Part shown: piece by piece, positions 33,933 to 54,014 of the stretch
How positions within the stretch are numbered: the first letter of the stretch is position 1
How the letters are laid out: each line of letters opens with the position of its first letter
Source of the DNA: Arthrobacter rhombi
GTDB taxonomy: Bacteria; Actinomycetota; Actinomycetes; Actinomycetales; Micrococcaceae
DNA length: 64,000 nt
Direction of reading: 5' to 3'
Assembly: GCF_900163545.1 (NCBI RefSeq)
Contig: NZ_FUHW01000027.1
Coordinates: 1 to 64,000, forward strand
The notes under the pieces: model-generated
Seen by the model: only the letters and a program-made list of their open reading frames with translations
Database searches by the model: none
What the model was told of the DNA's origin: nothing
Translations under genes and position numbers: made by a program

Positions 33933-35219
33933 GTGAAGGTACTCGTCATTGGCCCGGGCGGCCGCGAACACGCCATTATTCGTTCCCTCCTCAACGATCC
34001 ATTCGTCACCGAGGTCCATGCGGCCCCGGGAAACGCCGGCATAGCCGCCGACGTTCAGGCCCACGCCGTCGATGCGCAGAACCCGGAGGCAGTCCTTGCG
34101 CTGGCCCGGGAACTGCAATCCTCCCTGGTGATCGTCGGACCGGAAGCCCCGTTGGCAGCCGGTGTCGCCGATGCCCTGACGGCGGCCAATATCCCGGTCT
34201 TCGGCCCCTCCCAGGCAGCAGCCCAGTTGGAGGCATCCAAGGCGTTCGCCAAGGAAATCATGGCCATCGCCGGTGTCCCGACCGCGATGGCCCGGGTCGC
34301 CACCGATGCCGTCAGCGCGGCCGACGCCCTGGACGCCTTCGGGGCACCCTACGTGGTGAAGGACGATGGTCTGGCCGCGGGCAAGGGGGTCGTGGTCACC
34401 GGGGATCGCGAGGAAGCCTTGGCCCATGCGGCCGAATGCTTCGCCGCCGGCGGCAGTGTCGTCATCGAAGAATTCCTGGACGGCCCCGAGGTCTCCCTCT
34501 TCGTCCTTTCCGATGGGCGTCACGCCGTTCCGCTGGCACCTGCCCAGGACTTCAAACGCATCTTCGACGACGACCAAGGCCCGAACACCGGGGGCATGGG
34601 CGCCTATAGTCCGCTGGAATGGCTCCCCGAGGGGTTCGTCGACGACGTCATGGAACGGGTGGCCGGACCGACCATCAACGCCATGGCAGACCGCGGCACC
34701 CCGTTCACCGGTGTCCTGTACTGCGGGCTGGCACTGACCCGTCGTGGCATCAGGGTCATTGAATTCAACGCACGGTTCGGGGATCCCGAAACGCAGGCCG
34801 TCCTGGCCCGGCTCAAGACCCCGCTGGGCTCACTTCTACTGGCGGCGGCCCAGGGCACCCTGGACGACGTCGAACCGCTCACCTGGCGCCCGGAAACAGC
34901 GGTTGGCGTCGTGGTGGCGTCGGCCCATTACCCGGATGCCCCGGTGACTGGGGACGTCATTACCGGGCTCGACGAAGCAGCAGCCCTTGAGGGGGTCAGC
35001 GTCCTGCACGCAGGAACTGCCGTGAACGACGCCGGCGCCACCATTTCCGCTGGGGGCAGGGTCCTCGCGGTCGTTGGTTTGGGGAAGAGCCTGTCCTCGG
35101 CACGGGAGCGGGCCTACGCGGGAATCGCCAAGATCGGCCTCGCGGGAAGCCAGCATCGAACCGATATTGCCCTGCGGGCAGAACAAGGAAAAATCATCGT
35201 CGAACCGGAAGGCCACTGA
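33933..35219 (+). CDS. purD: phosphoribosylamine-glycine ligase PurD (GAR synthetase)
   Basis: Second step of purine synthesis. The 428-residue ATP-grasp enzyme starts VKVLVIGPGGREHAIIRSL (GTG start) and has the ATP-binding YVVKDDGLAAGKGVVV, the signature GPNTGGMGAYSP and EFNARFGDPETQAVL. Its stop overlaps the ATG of purC. Confidence 0.97.
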   Translation: MKVLVIGPGGREHAIIRSLLNDPFVTEVHAAPGNAGIAADVQAHAVDAQNPEAVLALARELQSSLVIVGPEAPLAAGVADALTAANIPVFGPSQAAAQLEASKAFAKEIMAIAGVPTAMARVATDAVSAADALDAFGAPYVVKDDGLAAGKGVVVTGDREEALAHAAECFAAGGSVVIEEFLDGPEVSLFVLSDGRHAVPLAPAQDFKRIFDDDQGPNTGGMGAYSPLEWLPEGFVDDVMERVAGPTINAMADRGTPFTGVLYCGLALTRRGIRVIEFNARFGDPETQAVLARLKTPLGSLLLAAAQGTLDDVEPLTWRPETAVGVVVASAHYPDAPVTGDVITGLDEAAALEGVSVLHAGTAVNDAGATISAGGRVLAVVGLGKSLSSARERAYAGIAKIGLAGSQHRTDIALRAEQGKIIVEPEGH

Positions 35220-36124
35220 TGACCGGCTTCACCACCGAGATCCTGGAACTACCGGGATGGGATCACCTGTATTCGGGCAAGGTCCGCGACCTGTACACCC
35301 CCGCAGGAATCTCTCCCGAGGAGGCCGATCGGGTGCTGGTGGTCGCCAGTGACCGTATCAGCGCCTATGACTTCGTTTTGGACACCCCGATCCCCGATAA
35401 GGGAAAGGTCCTCACCCAGCTGAGCCTGTGGTGGTTCGACCAACTCGACGGGTTCGCCAACCATGTCATCTCCACCGCGGTGCCCGAAGCCGTTGCCGGC
35501 CGGGCCATGGTGTGCCGGAAACTGCAGATGTACCCGATCGAATGTATTGCCCGCGGCTACCTGACCGGCTCGGGGCTGACGGAGTACCGGGGGAACCGGA
35601 CCGTGTGTTCACTTCCATTACCCGAAGGGCTGGTCGATGGTTCGGCGCTGGAGCCGGCGATCTTCACCCCCTCGGCGAAGGCGGAGGTGGGCGAACACGA
35701 CGAGAACATCACCTTCGACGAGGTCGTCGAACGGGTCGGAGCCGAAGTGGCCGGGCAGCTGCGTGATCTGACCCTGGGTATTTATACCCGGGCCGAAACG
35801 ATTGCTCGTGAACGCGGCATCATTCTGGCCGACACCAAGGTCGAATTCGGCCTGGATCCGGCCACCGGGGCCATTACCCTCGGCGATGAGGTGCTGACCC
35901 CCGATTCCTCACGCTTCTGGGATGCCCAGACCTATGTTCCGGGGCAGGCCCAGCCATCCTTCGATAAACAGTTCGTCCGCGACTGGCTCGTCTCCGATGC
36001 CTCGGGCTGGGACCGCACCAGCGCCGTCCCCCCACCGCCACTACCCCAGCAGGTCGTCGAGCGCACCAGGGCCCGTTATATCGAAGCCTACGAACGACTC
36101 ACCGGGAACACCTTCACGGCCTGA
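35219..36124 (+). CDS. purC: phosphoribosylaminoimidazole-succinocarboxamide synthase PurC
   Basis: Joins CAIR and aspartate to form SAICAR. The 301-residue protein has LYSGKVRDLY at the nucleotide loop, VVASDRISAYDFVLDTPIPDKG, ECIARGYLTGSGLTEY, LADTKVEFGLD and the C-terminal SSRFWDAQTYVPGQAQPSFDKQ. It is of the longer, eukaryote-like size class usual in Actinobacteria. The ATG overlaps the purD stop (TGATG), so the two are coupled. Confidence 0.97.
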   Translation: MTGFTTEILELPGWDHLYSGKVRDLYTPAGISPEEADRVLVVASDRISAYDFVLDTPIPDKGKVLTQLSLWWFDQLDGFANHVISTAVPEAVAGRAMVCRKLQMYPIECIARGYLTGSGLTEYRGNRTVCSLPLPEGLVDGSALEPAIFTPSAKAEVGEHDENITFDEVVERVGAEVAGQLRDLTLGIYTRAETIARERGIILADTKVEFGLDPATGAITLGDEVLTPDSSRFWDAQTYVPGQAQPSFDKQFVRDWLVSDASGWDRTSAVPPPPLPQQVVERTRARYIEAYERLTGNTFTA

Positions 36125-36155
36125 CCGGCGGAGGTTTCTGCCACCGCGGCCGAAC

Positions 36156-36191
36156 GTGGGGCGCGAAGAACCTCCCGCCCCACGCGTGGGG
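36156..36191. terminator. overlapping hairpins between purC and the XRE-TPR regulator gene
   Basis: GTGGGGCG/CGCCCCAC (36156-36183) overlaps a perfect palindrome CCCCACGCGTGGGG (36178-36191). Alternative pairings cover both directions at this convergent junction. T runs are short. Confidence 0.6.
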
Positions 36192-36194
36192 TTC

Positions 36195-37433
36195 CTAGCG
36201 TCGTGAAGCGCGGATCTCTGTCGCCAATTCGATCGCCAGCGAGGCGCGGTCCGGGGAACCGGCCAAGGCAAAGGCCTGCTGGGCGCGGGCGAGGTGGTCG
36301 ATGGCCTCGGTTCCGTTGCCCATGCCCACCATGCAGCGGGCCGTGAGCAGGTCGATTTCTCCCTGGAGGTGCTGGGAGAGGATCTCCCGGTCCTTTTCGA
36401 CGGGCGCGAGTTCCTCGAGCGCCTGCTCGGGTTGGCCGTTCAGGTGCAGCCAGCGGGCGCGGATCAGACCCAATTCCAGGGCTTCGGCAGGATTGCCGCC
36501 GATGACACTGATCGCCAGCTCGGCCTTTTCGATGCACTCCAACGTCTCGGGTTCAACCACACCGGCAGTCAACCGCATCGACGCCGAGGCCTTATTGAAG
36601 CGGGCCCACTGTTCGATATCGCTGGCAGGCAGCAGTCGCTGGGCAGCTAATTGGTGGTTGCTCAGGCCCGAGACGATGTCCTGGCGTTTGAAGGCCACAT
36701 TGCCGATCGCCCAGTAGGCGTTGCCTGCCGTCTGGCTGGGGGCACCTTCGGCCACCGCCTCGGCCAATGCTTCACAACTGGTCCAGGCGGCGTCGAGCTG
36801 CCCGGATTCGGCCAGGGAAGCGATCAGCGAGAACAGTGCGCCGATGTAGATCAGCGAGTCCCCGGGCAGATTCTTCCCCAGGTCGACGGCGGTGATCGCA
36901 TGCTCGACGGCGATATGCAGTTTCCCCAGTCCCAGGTAGGCATTGGCGACCAGGGTTTCAGCCCGCACCTTCAACGCGAGCGACTCGTCCGTCAGCGGGT
37001 GGTTCAGGACCTCTTCGGCGGTCGTGCGGTATTCATCATGGCGGCCCTGGTCCCGTAGCGCCTCGGCGCGCAGGAACATCATGTTCCACCAGGCACTCGA
37101 ATTCTTGAGCCGCAGCGCCACCAACGCCGCTTCGGCGGCCGTCTCTCCGGCGTCGGAATATTCGCGAGCTGTGAACGACTGGCGGGCCCGGTGCTCTAAC
37201 AGGACGAATTCCGCCTCATCGGCCGAGACCGGGGTGTTCCACGAATCCATGAGTTCGCGGTCCAAATTCAGTCGGGCGGATAGCTCGGTGATGATATCTG
37301 CGGTCGGTTCACGACTTCCTGTCTCCAAAAGAGAAATATAACTCGTGGAGTATTTACCGTGTCCGAGCTGGGCCTGGGTCAACTTCATCTGCTGGCGAGC
37401 ATGGCGGAGCTTTTCGCCGAATTTGATTCCCAT
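36195..37433 (-). CDS. XRE-type HTH regulator with TPR domain, RRNPP-like; likely sensor of the repeat peptide
   Basis: A 412-residue cytoplasmic regulator. Residues 1-60 form an XRE/Cro helix-turn-helix (FGEKLRHARQQMKLTQAQLG, TSYISLLETGSREPTADII). The remaining 350 residues are helical repeats of TPR type, e.g. AEAALVALRLKN, ETLVANAYLGLGKLHIAVEHAITAVDLG, AGNAYWAIGNVAF, and EALELGLIRARWLHLNGQPEQALEEL. This is the architecture of the RRNPP regulators (Rgg, NprR, PlcR, PrgX), which bind imported peptide pheromones; the length is close to NprR. It is divergent, 171 bp away, from the repeat-peptide gene. RBS AAGGGG precedes its ATG. Peptide binding is inferred from context only. Confidence 0.85.
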   Translation of the reverse strand: MGIKFGEKLRHARQQMKLTQAQLGHGKYSTSYISLLETGSREPTADIITELSARLNLDRELMDSWNTPVSADEAEFVLLEHRARQSFTAREYSDAGETAAEAALVALRLKNSSAWWNMMFLRAEALRDQGRHDEYRTTAEEVLNHPLTDESLALKVRAETLVANAYLGLGKLHIAVEHAITAVDLGKNLPGDSLIYIGALFSLIASLAESGQLDAAWTSCEALAEAVAEGAPSQTAGNAYWAIGNVAFKRQDIVSGLSNHQLAAQRLLPASDIEQWARFNKASASMRLTAGVVEPETLECIEKAELAISVIGGNPAEALELGLIRARWLHLNGQPEQALEELAPVEKDREILSQHLQGEIDLLTARCMVGMGNGTEAIDHLARAQQAFALAGSPDRASLAIELATEIRASRR

Positions 37434-37604
37434 GGAAACCCCTTAGAACGAACTGGAAGTGAATATTTCTCTGTTATTCGAAAAGGTCTAGTAGCAAACC
37501 TTGACGAAACATGTTCCTTCCAATTTACAATGAATGTTAAGTGATGCGCCACTCACTGAGGTATATATCGAAGAATTCGTGGCGACCCACACAAGGAGAA
37601 GACA
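37434..37604. promoter_or_regulatory. AT-rich divergent control region of the regulator/repeat-peptide pair
   Basis: This 171-bp gap is AT-rich against a GC-rich genome. Candidate promoter for the peptide: TTGACG (37501-37506) with TACAAT (37526-37531), spacing 19, or 18 to TTACAA. A perfect palindrome AACATGTT (37508-37515) lies between these boxes. Other dyads are GAATA/TATTC (37461-37479) and AGTGA/TCACT around 37540. The peptide's ribosome-binding site AAGGAG is at 37593-37598. The placement of the palindrome suits repression or activation by the divergent regulator. Confidence 0.6.
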
Positions 37605-37910
37605 TTGAAGAAGCTTGTTGCAGCGCTCGCGGCCACGGCCGCCCTGGCGGCCGGTTCGGTCCTGGCTGTCGGAGACTGGCCCCACGCCACCCCGAACGTC
37701 GGCGACTGGCCGCATTCCTCTGTAGCAGTTGGTGATTGGCCACATGCCACGATCAACGTCGGCGATTGGCCGCACGCAACGATCAATGTGGGTGACTGGC
37801 CGCACTCGGCAGTTGCCGTGGGCAATTGGCCGCATTCAAAGATCAATGTGGGTGACTGGCCGCACTCAACGATCAATGTTGGTAACTGGCCGCACGCAGC
37901 CGTCTCCTGA
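37605..37910 (+). CDS. secreted tandem-repeat peptide precursor, eight VG(D/N)WPH decapeptides
   Basis: A 101-residue precursor. The TTG start is fixed by AAGGAG six bases upstream and by MKKLVAALAATAALAAGSVLA, a 21-residue Sec signal peptide ending in a signal-peptidase site (VLA). The rest is exactly eight 10-residue units: VG(D/N)WPH, then four variable residues of pattern (A/S)-x-(I/V/P)-(N/A/S). Nothing else is encoded. Codons for the invariant V, G and H differ freely between units, so selection acts on the peptide. Design resembles a multi-copy pheromone precursor that is exported and cut. Alternatives: an antimicrobial peptide, or a His/Trp metal- or heme-binding repeat protein. Not a known family to me. 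Confidence 0.85.
   Translation: MKKLVAALAATAALAAGSVLAVGDWPHATPNVGDWPHSSVAVGDWPHATINVGDWPHATINVGDWPHSAVAVGNWPHSKINVGDWPHSTINVGNWPHAAVS
37668..37907 (+). repeat. eight in-frame 30-bp tandem repeats of the peptide precursor
   Basis: The array is 8 x 30 bp without interruption. Units 2, 5 and 8 end in VA or VS, the others in N, giving a three-unit (90-bp) superperiod. A 27-bp stretch is identical at 37781-37807 and 37841-37867, 60 bp apart, indicating a recent two-unit duplication. Other units have diverged mostly at synonymous positions. Confidence 0.95.
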
Positions 37911-37957
37911 TCCCGGCGTTCCGCTGGGAACACCGCAGGAGCATTGATGTCAGAAGG

Positions 37958-37991
37958 AAATGGTCCGGCCCCTTGGGGGGCCGGACCATTT
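37958..37991. terminator. bidirectional terminator between the peptide gene and the ABC exporter operon
   Basis: AAATGGTCCGGCCCC (37958-37972) pairs over 15 bp with GGGGCCGGACCATTT (37977-37991) around a TTGG loop. T residues flank the stem on both strands. It ends the peptide transcript and the convergent ABC operon. Confidence 0.9.
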
Positions 37992-38007
37992 GCGTGCCTG
38001 CCGGAGG

Positions 38008-39816
38008 CTAGTTCAGGCTTTGCTGCCAGGCGTGATGCAAGGCAGCGAAGCGTCCACCGGCTTGCACCAACTCGGTGGGGCTGCCGTCCTCGACGATTCG
38101 CCCGTCATGGACCACCAGAACCCGGTCGGCAATCTCCACGGTGGACAGCCGGTGGGCGATGATCAGGGCCGTCCGTTGGCCCAACAGGGTCTGCAGCCCG
38201 CGCTGGACCAGCCGTTCGCTGGGGATGTCCAGGGACGAGGTGGCCTCGTCCAGGATGAGGACTGCCGGGTCGGCCAGGAAGGCCCGGGCGAAGGAGATGA
38301 GCTGACGTTGGCCCGCCGAGACCCGGCCCCCGCGTTTATTCACGTCGGTGTCGTAGCCGTCGGGGAGGGATTTGATGAATTCATCGGCCCCCACGGCCCG
38401 TGCCGCCAGAATGATCTCGTCGACGGATGCCCCCGGCTTACCTAAGGCGATGTTTTCGGCGACGGTGCCCGAGAACAGGAACGCCTCCTGGGTCACCATG
38501 ACCACTGCCCGGCGCAGGTCCTCGTTGGCCAGGTGACTCAGTTCGACGCCGTCCAGGGTCAAGGAGCCGTGGGATAGATCGTAGAACCGGGCAATGAGCT
38601 TGGCCAGGGTCGACTTTCCGGCACCGGTCTGGCCCACCACGGCAACGGTCTGGCCGGCGGGGATGTCGAGGTCGAAGCGTTCCATGACCACCGGCCCGTC
38701 CCCGTAGCCGAAGACCGCCTGACGGAACTCGATATGCCCGGTGGGATCCTCCAACGGCAGCGGATCCTCGGGGTCGACGACGGTGGGCTCTTCCTCGAGC
38801 AGGCCGGAAACCTTTTCCAGGGCAGCCGTGGCGGCTTGCAGCGAGTTGTAGAACATGGCGATCTGGTCCACGGGCTGGAAGACCCGCTTCCCGGCCAGCA
38901 GCAGGCCGATGAGTGTCCCGACGTCCAGGGTCCCCTCGAGGACGCGGAAGCCGCCAAAGAGCAGCAGTGCGGCCACCGTCAGGTTGCCGATCAGGACCAG
39001 GGACGGTTGCAGGACACCGAAGAGGTTGATGGAGCGGATGGAGTTGTCGCGGTAGTCGTGGGCGACTGCGCGGTAGCTTTCGTTGTTATCACGTTCCCTC
39101 CGGAAGGCCTTGACCGCACGAATTCCGGTCATCGTCTCCACGAAGGAGGTGATCAGCCGGGCTGAGAAGACGCGGGACTCGCGGTAGACCAGCTCGGAAC
39201 GCTTCTGGTACCACCTGAAGATGACCGAAATGGGGATCAGTGCGCAGAGAATGATCAGCCCCGAACGCCAATCCAACAAGAAAATGCTGACGGCGGTGAA
39301 GGTGATGAACACGATGCCGGAGGCCAATTCCGAAATGCCCTGGTCCAGCAGCTCCCGTAGGGTCTCCAGATCGGAGGTCTGCCGGGAAATGATCCGTCCC
39401 GAGGTGTACTTCTCGTGGAATTCCAGGCTCAGTAGCTGGGTGTGCCGGAAGACGCGCATCCGCAGGGTGAGCAGCATGGCCTGGCTGACCTTGGCCGTGC
39501 AGAGGTTGTACCAACCCAACAGCAGCCCTGCGAGGAGTCCGGACACGATGTAGAGCCCTCCCGTCAGCGCGAAGGGGGTGGTGTTGCCGTCCATCAGTTG
39601 AGGCAGCGCCCAGGAGATGGACCACGCGACAATAAGCGGGAAGGAGGCGCGGGCCAGGTTGGAGACGACGACCAGGACCACGGTGAGGGCCAGCAGGGGT
39701 TTTTGGGTGGCCGCCAACTGTTTGAGCAGGGCCCAGGAACGGGACCTGACCCGGGCCCGGTCCTCGCGCCCGAGCAGAATCTGGTCTTCGTTCTCGACGC
39801 CGCGTGTGCCGCTCAT
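38008..39816 (-). CDS. ABC exporter subunit (fused membrane and ATPase domains)
   Basis: A 602-residue half-transporter: six transmembrane helices (about 35-320), then an ATPase with Walker A GQTGAGKST, Q-loop region MVTQEAFLFSGTV, signature VSAGQRQ (a variant of LSGGQ), Walker B with intact catalytic Glu (AVLILDEATSSLD) and switch His (IIAHRLSTV). It overlaps the next subunit gene by 4 bp. With its partner it should form a heterodimeric exporter of drugs, lipids or peptides. It lies tail-to-tail with the repeat-peptide gene, so a role in moving that peptide can be imagined, but the peptide has its own Sec signal. Confidence 0.93.
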   Translation of the reverse strand: MSGTRGVENEDQILLGREDRARVRSRSWALLKQLAATQKPLLALTVVLVVVSNLARASFPLIVAWSISWALPQLMDGNTTPFALTGGLYIVSGLLAGLLLGWYNLCTAKVSQAMLLTLRMRVFRHTQLLSLEFHEKYTSGRIISRQTSDLETLRELLDQGISELASGIVFITFTAVSIFLLDWRSGLIILCALIPISVIFRWYQKRSELVYRESRVFSARLITSFVETMTGIRAVKAFRRERDNNESYRAVAHDYRDNSIRSINLFGVLQPSLVLIGNLTVAALLLFGGFRVLEGTLDVGTLIGLLLAGKRVFQPVDQIAMFYNSLQAATAALEKVSGLLEEEPTVVDPEDPLPLEDPTGHIEFRQAVFGYGDGPVVMERFDLDIPAGQTVAVVGQTGAGKSTLAKLIARFYDLSHGSLTLDGVELSHLANEDLRRAVVMVTQEAFLFSGTVAENIALGKPGASVDEIILAARAVGADEFIKSLPDGYDTDVNKRGGRVSAGQRQLISFARAFLADPAVLILDEATSSLDIPSERLVQRGLQTLLGQRTALIIAHRLSTVEIADRVLVVHDGRIVEDGSPTELVQAGGRFAALHHAWQQSLN

Positions 39817-41660
39817 GCTTCGGATCCCTTTCCGGTTTTGGTCTGCAGGACGTCCTCCACCGTGGGTGGGTCATCGAGGCTGGCGATCACGTAGCGGTAG
39901 TGGTCGCTGCGGCTCAGGAGTTCGGTGTGGGTGCCGACGTCGTCGATCCGTCCATCGCGGAGCAGCGCGACCCGGTCGGCGAGCATCACCGTCGAGGGGC
40001 GGTGGGCCACGATGAGGGTCGTCATATCGGCGACCACCGCGCGCAGGCGCTCGGTCACTGCCTCCTCGGTGCGCACGTCCAGGGCCGACAACGGGTCATC
40101 CAGGACCAGGACGCGGGGTTTGGCGGCAATGGCCCGGGCCAGGGCGATCCGTTGCCGTTGGCCCCCCGAGAGGGAGAGGCCTTCCTCGCCGATGACCGTG
40201 TCGACGCCGTCCTCGAGATCGTGTGCAAAATGGGCTTGGGCGACATCCAGCGCCTCCTCCAGGGCGGTTCGCGGGGCCGTCCCGGCGGGAATTGAGGCAC
40301 CCAGGAGAATGTTTTCCGAGATCGACGAGGAAAATAGGGTGGTGTCTTCGAAGGCGACCGATACGGCAGTGCGCAACTCCTCGAGATCGTAGTGACGCAC
40401 ATCCACATCGTCGATGGCCACGCTGCCGCCTGAGGTTTCGTACAGCCGGGGAATCAGTTGCAGCAAGGTCGACTTGCCACTGCCGGTGGTCCCGACCAGG
40501 GCCATGGTTTCTCCCGGTTCGACCTCCAAGTCGACCCCGGCCAGGACCGGTGCGGTCCCGGGGCGGGCGTCGGGGTAGCTGAAGGAGACGTTGCGCAGGC
40601 TCAACCGCCCCTCGGGGCTGGCCGGGCGGGCCGGTGTGGTGGGGGAGTCGATGCTGTTGAGGGTATCCATGACGTCGAAGTGGCGGTCCAGGGCGGTCTT
40701 CGTCGTCAGGGTCATGCCCAACAGCATGCCGATGCCTTCCACGGGGGCGGCCAGGACGGCAGCGGTGGCGAAGAAGGTCGTCAGATCGCCGACGTCGAGT
40801 TCGCCTTGGGCTGTCAGCCAGATGCCGACCAGCAGGCCCACGCCGAGGGTCACTTCGGGGATGGAGACCACGAACATCAGGAAACCGGAAAGCGTACGCG
40901 CCTTGTTAATTTCGGTGTCCCGTAGTCGTCTGGCCCGGACGCCGAATCCTTCCAGGGCCTCGCTGCCACGGCCGAAGGCCTTGATGACCCGGATGCCATG
41001 GACTGATTCCTCCACGTTGGTGGCCAGGTCACCTGCCTGGTCCTGGCTGAGCCGGCTGGCGATGCGGAAAACGTTGCGGAAGTAGAAGGCGCGGATGGTG
41101 ATCGGGATGGCCCCGATCAGATAAATCGTCCCCAACAGCCAGCTACTGGTGAACATCAGCGTCAGGCCCACCAGGACGGTCACGGTGGAGACGATGAGCA
41201 TGATCGAGCCGAAGGCCAGCCAGCGGCGCAGCAGCCCGAGGTCGGCCATGGAGCGCGAGAGCAGCTGGCCGGAGCCCCATTTGTCATGGAAGGCCACGGG
41301 GAGTCGTTGCAGGTGCTGGTACATCCCCACGCGCAGGTTCGTTTCGATGCGTGCCGCCGGGGTGATCACGAAGATCCGCCGGAAGAAGACCAGTACCGCC
41401 TCGGCCAGCCCCAGCAAGGCGACGATGCCGACACTGAACCAGACGTCGGCTGTTGAGCCGCCGGCGTGCAGCACGGACTTGACCATCTGGCCCAGAACCT
41501 GCGGGATCGTTAGGGCCACGACGCCTGCTCCGAGCGCGCAGAGGAATCCCGCGAAAAGGCGGGGAGCGAAGGGGCGGATTTGTGGGCCGAGTCGGCTCAC
41601 GGTTTGCCAGAACGACGCCGGGGCGTCGGGCTGTTGCTGACTATTCTGGTGTTGCACCAC
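39813..41660 (-). CDS. ABC exporter subunit with degenerate catalytic site
   Basis: Partner half-transporter of about 615 residues. Six transmembrane helices precede an ATPase with Walker A GTTGSGKST, canonical LSGGQRQRIALARAI and Walker B VLVLDDPLSALD, in which the catalytic Glu is replaced by Asp. Such asymmetry (one consensus and one degenerate site) is typical of heterodimeric exporters such as LmrCD or TM287/288. A GTG at 41660 behind AGGA is preferred; a TTG start at 41702 would add 14 residues. Confidence 0.9.
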   Translation of the reverse strand: MVQHQNSQQQPDAPASFWQTVSRLGPQIRPFAPRLFAGFLCALGAGVVALTIPQVLGQMVKSVLHAGGSTADVWFSVGIVALLGLAEAVLVFFRRIFVITPAARIETNLRVGMYQHLQRLPVAFHDKWGSGQLLSRSMADLGLLRRWLAFGSIMLIVSTVTVLVGLTLMFTSSWLLGTIYLIGAIPITIRAFYFRNVFRIASRLSQDQAGDLATNVEESVHGIRVIKAFGRGSEALEGFGVRARRLRDTEINKARTLSGFLMFVVSIPEVTLGVGLLVGIWLTAQGELDVGDLTTFFATAAVLAAPVEGIGMLLGMTLTTKTALDRHFDVMDTLNSIDSPTTPARPASPEGRLSLRNVSFSYPDARPGTAPVLAGVDLEVEPGETMALVGTTGSGKSTLLQLIPRLYETSGGSVAIDDVDVRHYDLEELRTAVSVAFEDTTLFSSSISENILLGASIPAGTAPRTALEEALDVAQAHFAHDLEDGVDTVIGEEGLSLSGGQRQRIALARAIAAKPRVLVLDDPLSALDVRTEEAVTERLRAVVADMTTLIVAHRPSTVMLADRVALLRDGRIDDVGTHTELLSRSDHYRYVIASLDDPPTVEDVLQTKTGKGSEA

Positions 41661-41836
41661 GGAGGGCGTCCTCGATCTGTTGTGTTTGCCTACAGCAATC
41701 AAAGACAGCGTACAACCACCGGTTGGGTTTCATCAATCAGCGAGGTGGTGTGCTCCCACGAGGCGGCGGTTTATTGACCGGGCAGGACCCGGCAGAGGAA
41801 TTTCGATGGCGTTTCGGCGACCGTTGGGGGCGCGGG

Positions 41837-42790
41837 TCAGTCGCGTGCGGTCAGCGTCAACAAGACGGCTTCCGGCGGGCAAGCAATCCGAATCGGAGCG
41901 AACCTCGAGGTGCCGATGCCCGCCGAGACCTCCAAGGGGACGGTCTTGCCCCGGTGCTCCCATTCGGTGAGACCGCGGGCGCGCCACGTCGGCAAATCGC
42001 AGTTGCTCACCAGTGCTCCATAACCGGGAAGACAGATCTGTCCACCATGGGTGTGCCCGGCGAAAATAATATCCGCTCCGGAGTCCGTGAACTGGTCCAA
42101 AACCCGCTGGTAGGGGGCATGGGTTACGGCAATGCGTACGTGGGGCGCTTCGCCAGCGGTGGAGGAGCCGCGGGGCCACCCAGCGAATTTCTCGAGTTTC
42201 AGGTGGGGGTCGTCCACCCCCGAGAAGTCCAGTCGGACCCCGTTCACGGGCTTGGAAATGGCCCGGTTGGTCAAATTGGTCCAACCGGCTGCGCCGAAGC
42301 CGGCATGCATCTGCTGCCAAGGCAACGCGTATTTGGCCAGGTTGCGTGACTTGTCGCGGGCACCGGTGAGGTAGCGCAGCGGGTTCTTTGGACGCGGCCC
42401 GTAATAGCAGTTGGATCCCGGGACGAACACCCCGTGGAAGGCCATCAGCGGTCGGAGGGCTTCCAGAAGTTCGGGGACGGCCTGGCGGTGGCTGAGGTTG
42501 TCCCCGGTGTTGACCACCAGGTCGGGGTTCAGCCCGGCCAAGGATTCGAGCCAGCGTTTCTTGGCGTCCTGGCCCGGCACCATGTGGATATCTGAGAGGT
42601 GGAGGACCCGCAGGTCAGGCATCCCCGGGGGAAGGAGGGCCACCGTCTCATGGCGGATGCTGAACGCGTTGCGCTCCAGTAGCCCGTAGCCGATGGCCAG
42701 CCCGCCCAGCGAGACGCCGATGCCGGCCGCGGCCCCCACGAAGGGCGCCGCTCGTTTGACGGCCTGCGTGATGTCCTGTGTTGCGCCCAT
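41837..42790 (-). CDS. membrane-associated metallophosphoesterase
   Basis: A 317-residue calcineurin-like phosphoesterase with an N-terminal hydrophobic segment (about 15-36). Metal-ligand motifs are LHLSDIHM, NTGDNLSH, VTHAP and AGHTHGGQ. The usual GNHD/E motif reads GSNCYYG, a change common in this actinobacterial group. The M. tuberculosis counterpart by position is Rv3683, also beside ponA2. The substrate is unknown. It is 29 bp downstream of the PBP gene and likely co-transcribed. Confidence 0.9.
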   Translation of the reverse strand: MGATQDITQAVKRAAPFVGAAAGIGVSLGGLAIGYGLLERNAFSIRHETVALLPPGMPDLRVLHLSDIHMVPGQDAKKRWLESLAGLNPDLVVNTGDNLSHRQAVPELLEALRPLMAFHGVFVPGSNCYYGPRPKNPLRYLTGARDKSRNLAKYALPWQQMHAGFGAAGWTNLTNRAISKPVNGVRLDFSGVDDPHLKLEKFAGWPRGSSTAGEAPHVRIAVTHAPYQRVLDQFTDSGADIIFAGHTHGGQICLPGYGALVSNCDLPTWRARGLTEWEHRGKTVPLEVSAGIGTSRFAPIRIACPPEAVLLTLTARD

Positions 42791-52502: not shown

Positions 52503-52697
52503 ACCGATCGTCTCTGGTGGTGGCCTCGATCACGCAGTGAGACGCTCACCGTGCGGATTCTGCGGTGAACGGTACCCTCGGGGCCCCCTGGAGAGTGAAA
52601 TGGCCTCGGAATCCGTGCGGCATTGGTCGTACCGCGCCGATAGGCTGGGGACCGAAGCCGATTGCAGACCGTCACGAAGTGGGCGGCGAAAGGAGTC

Positions 52698-54014
52698 ATG
52701 ATGGCTAGTTCCTCCGCCGATTCGTCGGGGACCGCCCCGGCACTGGCCGGCCCCTTCACCCTGCGCGAAGTCGCGGTGATGGCTGGCGCCCTGCTGCTGC
52801 TCGTTGGATCCGTGTTGCCGTTCCAGGTCGCCGGAGGCTCCTATGCCAACGTGTGGAACCACCAGACGAGCGCCTTCAACCAATTCATCTCGCTGGCCCT
52901 GCCGCTGATCATTGGCGGGGCCTTCGCCTGGCGCCGACTCGCCGGCAGGACCCGGGTGACCGCCGGTTCCCTCACCTTGGACCAGCTCGGTTCGGTGGTC
53001 TCCCTGTTGGGCATCCTGTACTTCTTCATCTACTCGGTGATGTCGATGAACCCCGCCTTCCTGTTGGGACTGGTCGGCGCCCTGGTGATGACCGCAGGCA
53101 CTACGGCGGCCCCTTATATCCCGGGGTTCGTGCTGGATTTCGCGCCCGGCGAGGCGGCCCTGCTGACCCGGCCGATCCGCCCCAGCGCACCGCGTGCCCA
53201 GGCCCGGCCCGCTGCCTCGAACACCTCTGCCGTCCCACCGGAACCGGCCACCGGAGCCGCAGCCGCCACCGGGACGACCGTCCCCGCCGGAGCCCAAACG
53301 CCCGGCCAGACTCCCGAAGAGAAACACCAGGCCGCGGTGGCGACCGGGCTGGCCGCCGGCCACAGCACGACGCCCGAACCCGTTCCGGGAGCCTGGCCGG
53401 TGTCCGCTGACGCCGATGAAGCGGCAGAACCTGGCGAGATCGCCGACACCACGAACGGCCCGACCGGTCAACCAGCGGAACCGGAGGCCACCACACCTGA
53501 GCCGGCGGGGCCCCCCACCGATGCGGGAACCCTGCCGGTCGTTGCCGATTCCCCGTCCCCGAGCGCCGGCCCAGAACTTCTCGGTACACCGGCAGCCCAG
53601 GAGCCAGCGGCCGAAACACCGGCAGCGAAGCCAGACACCGCCGAGGACGTCCCGGGGCCCGAAGCATCACCAGCTTCCGCAGCTCAGGCACCGGCACCGG
53701 CACCGGCACCGGCACCGGCACCGGAAACGACGGTGCATTCGGTGGCCGCCAGCAGCGATACAGCTTCCCAACAGGAAGCCGAACAGTCCTTCACCGCCAC
53801 CAGTGGTGGGAACGCCTCGACGTCAACGGCCTTCTGGTTCGCGGTGCCCGATAGCCGCACAGCGGTTAACGAGGCCACGGGCCGCAACTCCTTCGTCCTG
53901 GAGCCCGGGGAGTGGATCTTGGCCTTGGAGGATCGCGGATACGAGTTCCTCGTCCAGACCTCCGACGGCGCGGTGGGGGTACTGCGCGATCTGAGCCGGA
54001 TCGAACGCGCCTGA
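52698..54014 (+). CDS. hypothetical membrane protein with long Pro/Ala-rich linker
   Basis: A 438-residue protein. Four transmembrane helices occupy about residues 25-155 (VAVMAGALLLLVGSVLPF, FISLALPLIIGGAFAW, LGSVVSLLGILYFFIYSVM, FLLGLVGALVMTAGTTAA). A linker of about 190 residues rich in Pro, Ala, Glu and Thr follows, including an (AP)6 run. The last 60 residues form a small conserved-looking domain (TAFWFAVPDSRTAVNEATG, LEPGEWILALEDRGYEFLV). Start at 52698 behind GAAAGGAG. Function unknown; it precedes nth by 2 bp. Confidence 0.8.
   Translation: MMASSSADSSGTAPALAGPFTLREVAVMAGALLLLVGSVLPFQVAGGSYANVWNHQTSAFNQFISLALPLIIGGAFAWRRLAGRTRVTAGSLTLDQLGSVVSLLGILYFFIYSVMSMNPAFLLGLVGALVMTAGTTAAPYIPGFVLDFAPGEAALLTRPIRPSAPRAQARPAASNTSAVPPEPATGAAAATGTTVPAGAQTPGQTPEEKHQAAVATGLAAGHSTTPEPVPGAWPVSADADEAAEPGEIADTTNGPTGQPAEPEATTPEPAGPPTDAGTLPVVADSPSPSAGPELLGTPAAQEPAAETPAAKPDTAEDVPGPEASPASAAQAPAPAPAPAPAPETTVHSVAASSDTASQQEAEQSFTATSGGNASTSTAFWFAVPDSRTAVNEATGRNSFVLEPGEWILALEDRGYEFLVQTSDGAVGVLRDLSRIERA
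53688..53723 (+). repeat. (GCACCG)6 hexanucleotide repeat in the Pro/Ala linker
   Basis: Six exact copies of GCACCG encode (Ala-Pro)6. Because the unit is a multiple of three, slippage would change linker length without breaking the frame. Confidence 0.9.

Follow-up and report, generated by a model that had tools for sequence, protein, structure and literature searches.

Does the XRE-TPR regulator gene of this locus form, with the repeat-encoding gene beside it, a pair of intracellular receptor and secreted peptide pheromone? The window, that is, the whole stretch of DNA analyzed (64,000 nucleotides), had been described in a sequence-only reading as holding a 412-residue regulator 171 bp from, and divergent to, a repeat gene, and both ORFs and the HTH and TPR assignments were found as described (Table 1). 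In the literature cited here, intracellular peptide-pheromone receptors are a matter of the Bacillota. The survey scope given for RRNPP_detector is Firmicutes and viruses, and Actinomycetota are said there to use, typically, enzyme-made small molecules as signals (PMC10075063); a review also mentions cyclic or modified peptides (PMC4748050). Searches of open-licence PMC papers returned no account of a W-P peptide family, nor of Actinomycetota having an RRNPP-type system. On the evidence below, the regulator and precursor are judged likely to be a peptide-pheromone pair working like the RRNPP systems of Bacillota.

Table 1. Features of the regulator-precursor locus, in window coordinates
Feature	Position	Strand	Basis
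XRE-TPR regulator, candidate intracellular peptide receptor, 412 aa	36195..37433	-	ORF, HTH_31/HTH_3, weak TPR, AF2 model, family relatives
Putative promoter of the precursor and operator of the regulator: conserved intergenic element TTGACG-N19-TACAAT...TGTTAA	37501..37540	.	Comparative counts
Ribosome-binding site AAGGAG, 6 nt before TTG	37593..37598	+	Sequence
Secreted multi-copy peptide precursor, 101 aa, TTG start	37605..37910	+	ORF; in all 3 genus genomes; related precursors face regulator orthologs
Sec signal peptide, 21 codons, putative SPase I site VLA/VGDWPH	37605..37667	+	Read from sequence
Eight 30-bp units, each hexapeptide VG(D/N)WPH + 4-residue linker	37668..37907	+	TRF, pN/pS
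Probable terminator, a 15-bp hairpin separating the precursor from the convergent ABC gene	37958..37991	.	-33.4 kcal/mol, z -5.56

The precursor is composed, as had been proposed, of a signal peptide and eight 10-residue units: after MKKLVAALAATAALAAGSVLA (21 residues) come exactly 80 more (8 x 10), with the core VGDWPH in six units and VGNWPH in two. Since exactly eight 10-residue units follow the 21-residue leader, a cut at VLA/VGDWPH would leave nothing else. The tandem array was detected by TRF (score 178; copies match the consensus at 71%–72%), and its DNA copies have diverged with the peptide core unchanged. The precursor is a real gene and not a chance reading frame, having an AAGGAG site, mostly synonymous change, related counterparts at the corresponding place in other genera and a place in all 3 genus genomes, the source genome included. 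A contig scan for the precursor returned 2 loci, both from Micrococcaceae bacterium, which are its places in the other two genus genomes.

Comparison of the window precursor with that of L008 gave changes at 28.5 of 76.7 synonymous sites and at 10.5 of 226.3 replacement sites. In the VG(D/N)WPH core, the eight copies of the window differ by 0.808 per synonymous site and 0.030 per replacement site (pN/pS 0.037), versus a pN/pS of 0.555 for the four linker residues; with 21 full copies from the 3 genus genomes the ratios were 0.017 for the core and 0.601 for the linker. The core ratio lies far below the linker ratio, and selection therefore acts on the hexapeptide and not on all ten residues. 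The signal unit had been taken to be the decapeptide, but these ratios make the hexapeptide VG(D/N)WPH the probable conserved unit. The precursor of L009 terminates in ...VGDWPH, and the three genus precursors contain 8, 8 and 6 copies.

The N-terminus of the regulator matched HTH models in Pfam (HTH_31, 2.3e-7; HTH_3, 2.3e-6), and its TPR matches were weak and under the cut-off. RRNPP-specific domain models exist; the members scanned matched generic HTH and TPR-type models alone. The AF2 model (pLDDT 92.5, pTM 0.77) comprises the HTH and eight TPR-like helix pairs, and a TPR-only relative was also modeled confidently (pLDDT 92.9, pTM 0.85). In the Foldseek search with the regulator model, rank 2 was PlcR with PapR and DNA (E 7.8e-6, TM 0.43/0.60). 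With VIA-align, the regulator was superposed on Rap plus peptide (4gyo; Z 21.9, 4.2 Å, 306 aligned), apo NprR (5dbk; Z 21.8, 4.4 Å, 314 aligned) and the TPR protein LGN (6hc2; Z 27.2, 5.7 Å, 342 aligned). LGN, a functionally unrelated TPR protein, thus outranks PlcR, Rap and NprR, and other TPR proteins likewise equal or exceed the RRNPP structures in fold score; because of this the fold is a generic TPR fold that cannot decide function. The profile of 30 regulators matched PlcR across HTH and TPR as one stretch (E 2.9e-7), a match exceeded in score by an HTH protein and by designer repeat proteins. Residues W115, W116, W241, N245, F248 and W276 are invariant in the alignment and, in the model, each lies on the first helix of its helix pair; the invariant H260 sits on a second helix. 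In TPR proteins the first helix of each pair lines the groove, and the modeled position of the first-helix residues is as expected for a receptor of a conserved ligand. RRNPPA receptors are defined by a superhelix built from 5 to 9 tandem TPR motifs (PMC9765709), the transcriptional members having an N-terminal HTH as well. The architecture of tandem TPR-like pairs plus N-terminal HTH was found here, with the HTH in 30 of the 30 family members scanned by Pfam and eight helix pairs in the model. A small secreted propeptide adjoining the receptor gene, also a criterion for RRNPP/RRNPPA systems, is present too, its signal peptide being judged from sequence. As for other roles, PADLOC matches of the regulator were confined to the N-terminal HTH region and the precursor had no PADLOC match, so the regulator was rejected as a defense system. 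It was also rejected as a mobile element: phage records contained no match, viral contigs yielded no confirmed relative, and the sole plasmid matches were at 25%–28% on 6 Streptomyces plasmids.

Regulator relatives were found in 143 of 295 family genomes (E 1e-10), and Micrococcaceae bacterium RIT 802 has a counterpart that is 95% identical. The 110 regulators examined came from 30 loci returned by the search and 80 chosen stretches, a sample of the places found. Two of the 80 stretches (L131 and L132) are repeat places without a regulator, the repeat place L061 was read separately, and of 111 regulator matches the second one in L120, with an unclear start, was dropped. An ORF was scored as a peptide gene if it ended no more than 5 residues from W-P or contained at least two G-x-W-P, and related genomes were counted as separate in every count. 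A divergent ORF of this kind was found at 77 of 110 regulators, versus 7 on the opposite strand and 9.65 expected from dinucleotide shuffles under the same criterion (20 shuffles each), which is the fair control. The earlier proposal that an XRE-TPR receptor is paired with a secreted multi-copy precursor is thus strongly supported by comparative pairing, in the family and in the other classes described below.

Divergent family motifs include AIGNWPDPM (1–6 copies), VGNWPDAV, VGIWPNS, VGEWPH and VGNWPDRF (up to 8 copies), and across the system copy number ranges from 1 to 8. The residue following WP was D 166 times, H 29, N 15, A 5, Y 4 and F 3 in 74 precursors, after the doubtful precursors L018, L134, L146 and L151 had been excluded. 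Single-copy precursors in the family end in ...SIGWWPN, ...NNWPY, ...GLWPY or ...IGNWPL; this set was picked partly by C-terminal position, so that a count of 17 of 17 ending there is circular and was not used. Phr/PapR-type propeptides carry the signal at the C-terminus, and the single-copy forms with a C-terminal motif appear to resemble them.

A regulator-blind search, for two G-(N/D)-W-P codon groups 15–45 bases apart, matched 56 of 295 family genomes, versus 16 of 295 for the reversed-pattern control. The sequence-only reading had named, as an outcome that would refute it, repeat homologues occurring mostly without the regulator. The opposite was observed: among the 60 double-motif places listed, 45 adjoin a regulator and 15 lie elsewhere, as sorted by eye. 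Two of these 15 are arrays of IGNWPDPM without a leader: L131 (G011:C12:296000-299500) and L132 (G226:C1:3839000-3842500) have leaderless-looking IGNWPDPM-repeat ORFs and no regulator match in the stretch. Their genomes also carry the secreted IGNWPDPM system (L023 and L038), and the leaderless arrays are possibly a second source or a decoy of the IGNWPDPM peptide. At L018 the place of the longer precursors of relatives is taken by a 16-aa micro-ORF, MRNFVSFISGRVNWPF, which lies ~130 bp upstream from the regulator; it is reminiscent of leaderless short pheromones. In genus g32, short leaderless-looking ORFs ending VGDWPD or VGNWPD are divergent from receptors (L162, L178 and L134).

The remaining 33 of the 110 regulators had no ORF passing the peptide criterion. 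In the tree of the 110 receptors, 27 of the 33 sit in three clades (16 rows, 7 rows and 4 of a 5-row clade), and the other six are L017, L020, L086, L099, L123 (the first receptor there, at a contig edge) and L148. Among these are near misses, L086 with one copy and a longer tail and L099 with two W-P copies outside the criterion. For the clade of sixteen (L095, L101–L108, L110–L114, L116 and L144), no upstream W-P peptide gene was found; these could be listeners to the signals of others, or receptors with a new ligand. Receptors aligned from the HTH onward had a peptide in 57 of 88 cases. Where the alignment with the window regulator begins past residue 20, as in 22 receptors, most of them ~340–380 aa, 20 had one. 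Pfam listed no HTH model at E 0.01 for the 19 late-start receptors scanned, and the profile of the HTH-less receptors aligns with the TPR part of the HTH kind with probability 100. At L125, tandem receptors in one genome have different peptides, MIDNWPN and VGNWPD. In a receptor-peptide covariation analysis the top column corresponded to window residue 164, a result resting on few lineages.

An intergenic element was first spotted by eye, and two tolerant expressions were then composed from those sequences for counting. The form TTGAC-N19-TACAAT...TGTYAA was present at 46 of 56 HTH regulators with a peptide versus 2 of 32 without, that is, it is absent from 30 of 32 peptide-less HTH regulators. 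A sigma-70 scan found no promoter at 16–18 nt spacing; the conserved hexamers stand 19 nt apart. Of 9 genomes searched, 8 have the exact core, once each and always at this locus, and G083 lacks it; a regulon search with the element in the 9 genomes gave 4 extra two-mismatch matches versus 8 for the reversed-pattern control. The exact element being found only at its own locus, the peptide and regulator genes are the only targets with evidence.

Within the order, the regulator was matched (E 1e-20) in 19 of 297 genomes, and four of these lie beyond the family. Opposite L164 are two copies of TVGGSWPTSQDP plus a third that ends in TVGGSWPTVLDAS, L165 faces an ORF ending SDTWPA, and at L166, L167 and L177, 3 of the 5 loci from the four genomes, no W-P ORF was found. 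Across the phylum 7 of 396 genomes matched; at two loci of another class an XRE-TPR gene faces a 29-aa ORF with a signal peptide, ending GYPWPK, and nothing comparable was found at the g116 loci L191 and L192, the latter having a 159-aa ORF that ends EWP and starts at the regulator. The receptor was then found in 14 of 27 genomes of that other class (E 1e-25) and, with a second profile, in 36 of 392 phylum genomes (E 1e-35), among them family f25, which is absent from the class listing that gave 14 of 27. The 21 other-class loci scored comprise 13 of 15 (two partial receptors excluded) and 8 of family f25; eight g116 loci were counted apart. A divergent ORF of 28–40 aa with a hydrophobic leader and W-P among its last residues was found at 12 of the 21 (8 of 13 and 4 of 8), versus 0 on the opposite strand and 0.0 in 50 shuffles each; these are not 12 independent events, because several loci are closely related. 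The ORFs end in YPWPK (twice), FPWPK, ANWPHH, ANWPKH, AGWPKH, AGWPRH, ANWPHVP, AKWPWG, APWPPCC, TWPHC and APWPHCC, and amount to a signal peptide plus about six residues. At 9 of the 21 loci no W-P peptide was found. Between the two receptor groups, the profiles could be aligned across 399 columns (E 8.6e-28), a value to be read knowing that any two HTH-TPR profiles may align somewhat.

In f21 g116 (L228–L235), 7 of 8 XRE-TPR homologues face a small leader-bearing ORF with an A-x-x-x-GP core, as seen by eye without a shuffle control, and no W-P peptide was found at any of the eight loci. These ORFs are possibly a sister signal in this large-genome genus. That the phylum has a Trp-Pro pheromone family so far unrecognized, with HTH-TPR and TPR-only receptors, precursors that may be as small as a leader with about six residues or as large as an eight-copy array, and, in the 6–10 Mb genus f21 g116, a homologous receptor with an A-x-x-x-GP core, is given a chance somewhat better than even.

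In the proposed mechanism, the precursor would be exported by Sec and a signal peptidase cut would free the string of eight tandem units, which extracellular proteases may trim to VG(D/N)WPH-type hexapeptides. The hexapeptides would be re-imported by an oligopeptide permease and bind in the concave groove that the TPR domain forms, and the bound peptide would alter the action of the HTH on the shared divergent promoter; the conserved intergenic element suggests co-control of the peptide and receptor genes. Many copies per precursor would raise the output of one signal. With other W-P cores and 1–8 copies, the same design appears to recur across the Micrococcaceae, and other classes of the phylum appear to have it in a minimal form. 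The pheromone reading is preferred because pairing exceeds its controls in the family (77 of 110 versus 7 and 9.65) and in other classes (12 of 21 versus 0 and 0.0), because the core is under purifying selection with much looser linkers, and because C-terminal single-copy forms exist. It is also preferred because peptide-less receptors cluster in clades and mostly lack the promoter element, because of the HTH plus TPR architecture, the PlcR profile match and PlcR-PapR-DNA at Foldseek rank 2, because HTH-less Rap-like relatives have W-P peptides of their own and the tandem receptors of L125 differ in peptide, and because nine proteins of SBP_bac_5 type, the oligopeptide-binding family, are encoded in the genome. 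Against it weigh the unspecific fold match, the finding of no target besides its own promoter, the 33 of 110 regulators with no ORF passing the criterion, and the loci outside the family at which no W-P peptide was found.

An unlikely alternative makes the secreted peptides the output (antimicrobial, anti-phage or self-acting) and the XRE-TPR protein merely their transcriptional controller, sensing something else. Secreted multi-copy peptides can act as effectors, the neighboring ABC transporter pair is readable as export or immunity, and in 8 of 9 genomes the exact operator core occurs only at its own locus. Typical bacteriocins, however, are longer than about six residues, so that the motif, which persists at about this length behind a signal peptide, is too short for one, and HTH-less Rap-like receptors with their own peptides suggest ligand binding over plain control of transcription. 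The receptor might also gauge its own precursor, exported and re-imported, as a private self-timer and not a population sensor. We regard this as quite unlikely: precursors of the distant classes scarcely exceed signal peptides, as such a sensor would allow, but up to 8 copies suggest amplification for release, and paralogous pairs with different peptides (L125) suggest separate channels.

The eight regular repeats of the window genus, with Asp/Asn and His in each unit, could also be read as a structural, wall or metal-binding protein, an alternative that the sequence-only reading had itself named. It is now very improbable, since W-P stays constant and single-copy forms exist: elsewhere His is mostly replaced (D 166, H 29 after WP), single-copy forms only a few residues long are common, and copy number varies within one genus. 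Precursors of modified peptide natural products (RiPPs) can consist of a small leader plus repeated cores, a layout shared by this gene; a Sec-type signal peptide in place of a RiPP leader, and no modifying enzyme recognized among the neighbors (four proteins by Pfam, the rest by eye), make this origin barely credible, although such enzymes may be encoded elsewhere in the genome.

The yeast alpha-factor precursor consists of a signal peptide and tandem near-identical pheromones with short spacers. The window precursor has the same layout, with tandem near-identical units, but lacks Kex2-type Lys-Arg sites, and the receptor here is probably cytoplasmic. PlcR-PapR and NprR-NprX share with the present pair an HTH plus TPR receptor adjoining a small Sec-exported propeptide and a short mature unit (here predicted), and multi-copy propeptides are reported for NprR and PlcR (PMC9765709); the present pair differs in belonging to Actinomycetota, in its divergent peptide gene and in its conserved Trp-Pro core. 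In Bacillales the peptide gene is described as immediately downstream of the receptor gene (PMC9765709). Rap-Phr systems are approached by the HTH-less ~343-aa TPR receptors with their own peptide in Micrococcaceae, and by repeated pheromones as in the duplicated propeptides of Rap105/Rap3T (PMC11343458), whereas the window receptor has an HTH. The AloR-AloP systems of Paenibacillus have an HTH plus TPR receptor, a small secreted propeptide and several pairs per genome, but their AloP ORFs are 32–50 aa and immediately downstream, unlike the divergent genes with up to eight copies found here (PMC7425212). Bacterial precursors had been taken to be single-copy, which the published record contradicts: Bacillota RRNPPA propeptides are described with up to six copies, multi-copy forms occurring in AimR, NprR, Rap and PlcR systems and in 17 of 17 NprR propeptides of atypically large size (PMC9765709), and as many as eight copies are cited elsewhere (PMC11343458). 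Multi-copy propeptides being known in Bacillota, the present system is not categorically new.

As read from genomes, Micrococcaceae probably secrete short peptide strings that are sensed by the protein of the adjoining gene, and the look-alike pairs in distant relatives suggest an unrecognized family of bacterial messages. If the pair does signal, one of the major bacterial phyla has a peptide language of its own. The predicted signals (VGDWPH, IGNWPDPM, NNWPY and GYPWPK) would then be short and cheap to synthesize, with receptors ready for testing, and precursors with 1 to 8 copies offer a natural series in which to ask why a pheromone is repeated within a bacterial precursor.

Around the locus, an Rfam scan of 35000–42000 gave no RNA element at the gathering threshold, and an RNA element reading was rejected on this basis. 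The hairpin behind the precursor was not listed by a terminator pattern scan that requires a T-run. Two ABC transporter half-genes, convergent to the precursor, occupy 38008–41702, and a relative of the first was found in 30 of 110 family loci, where the flanks fetched were short. A purC match lies inside the fetched flank at all 30 loci L013–L042, and the main system is therefore an old chromosomal resident. Farther along the window, GGCACC is repeated 6.3 times at 53687–53724, encoding Ala-Pro repeats in a 450-aa ORF (52662–54014) with hydrophobic stretches.
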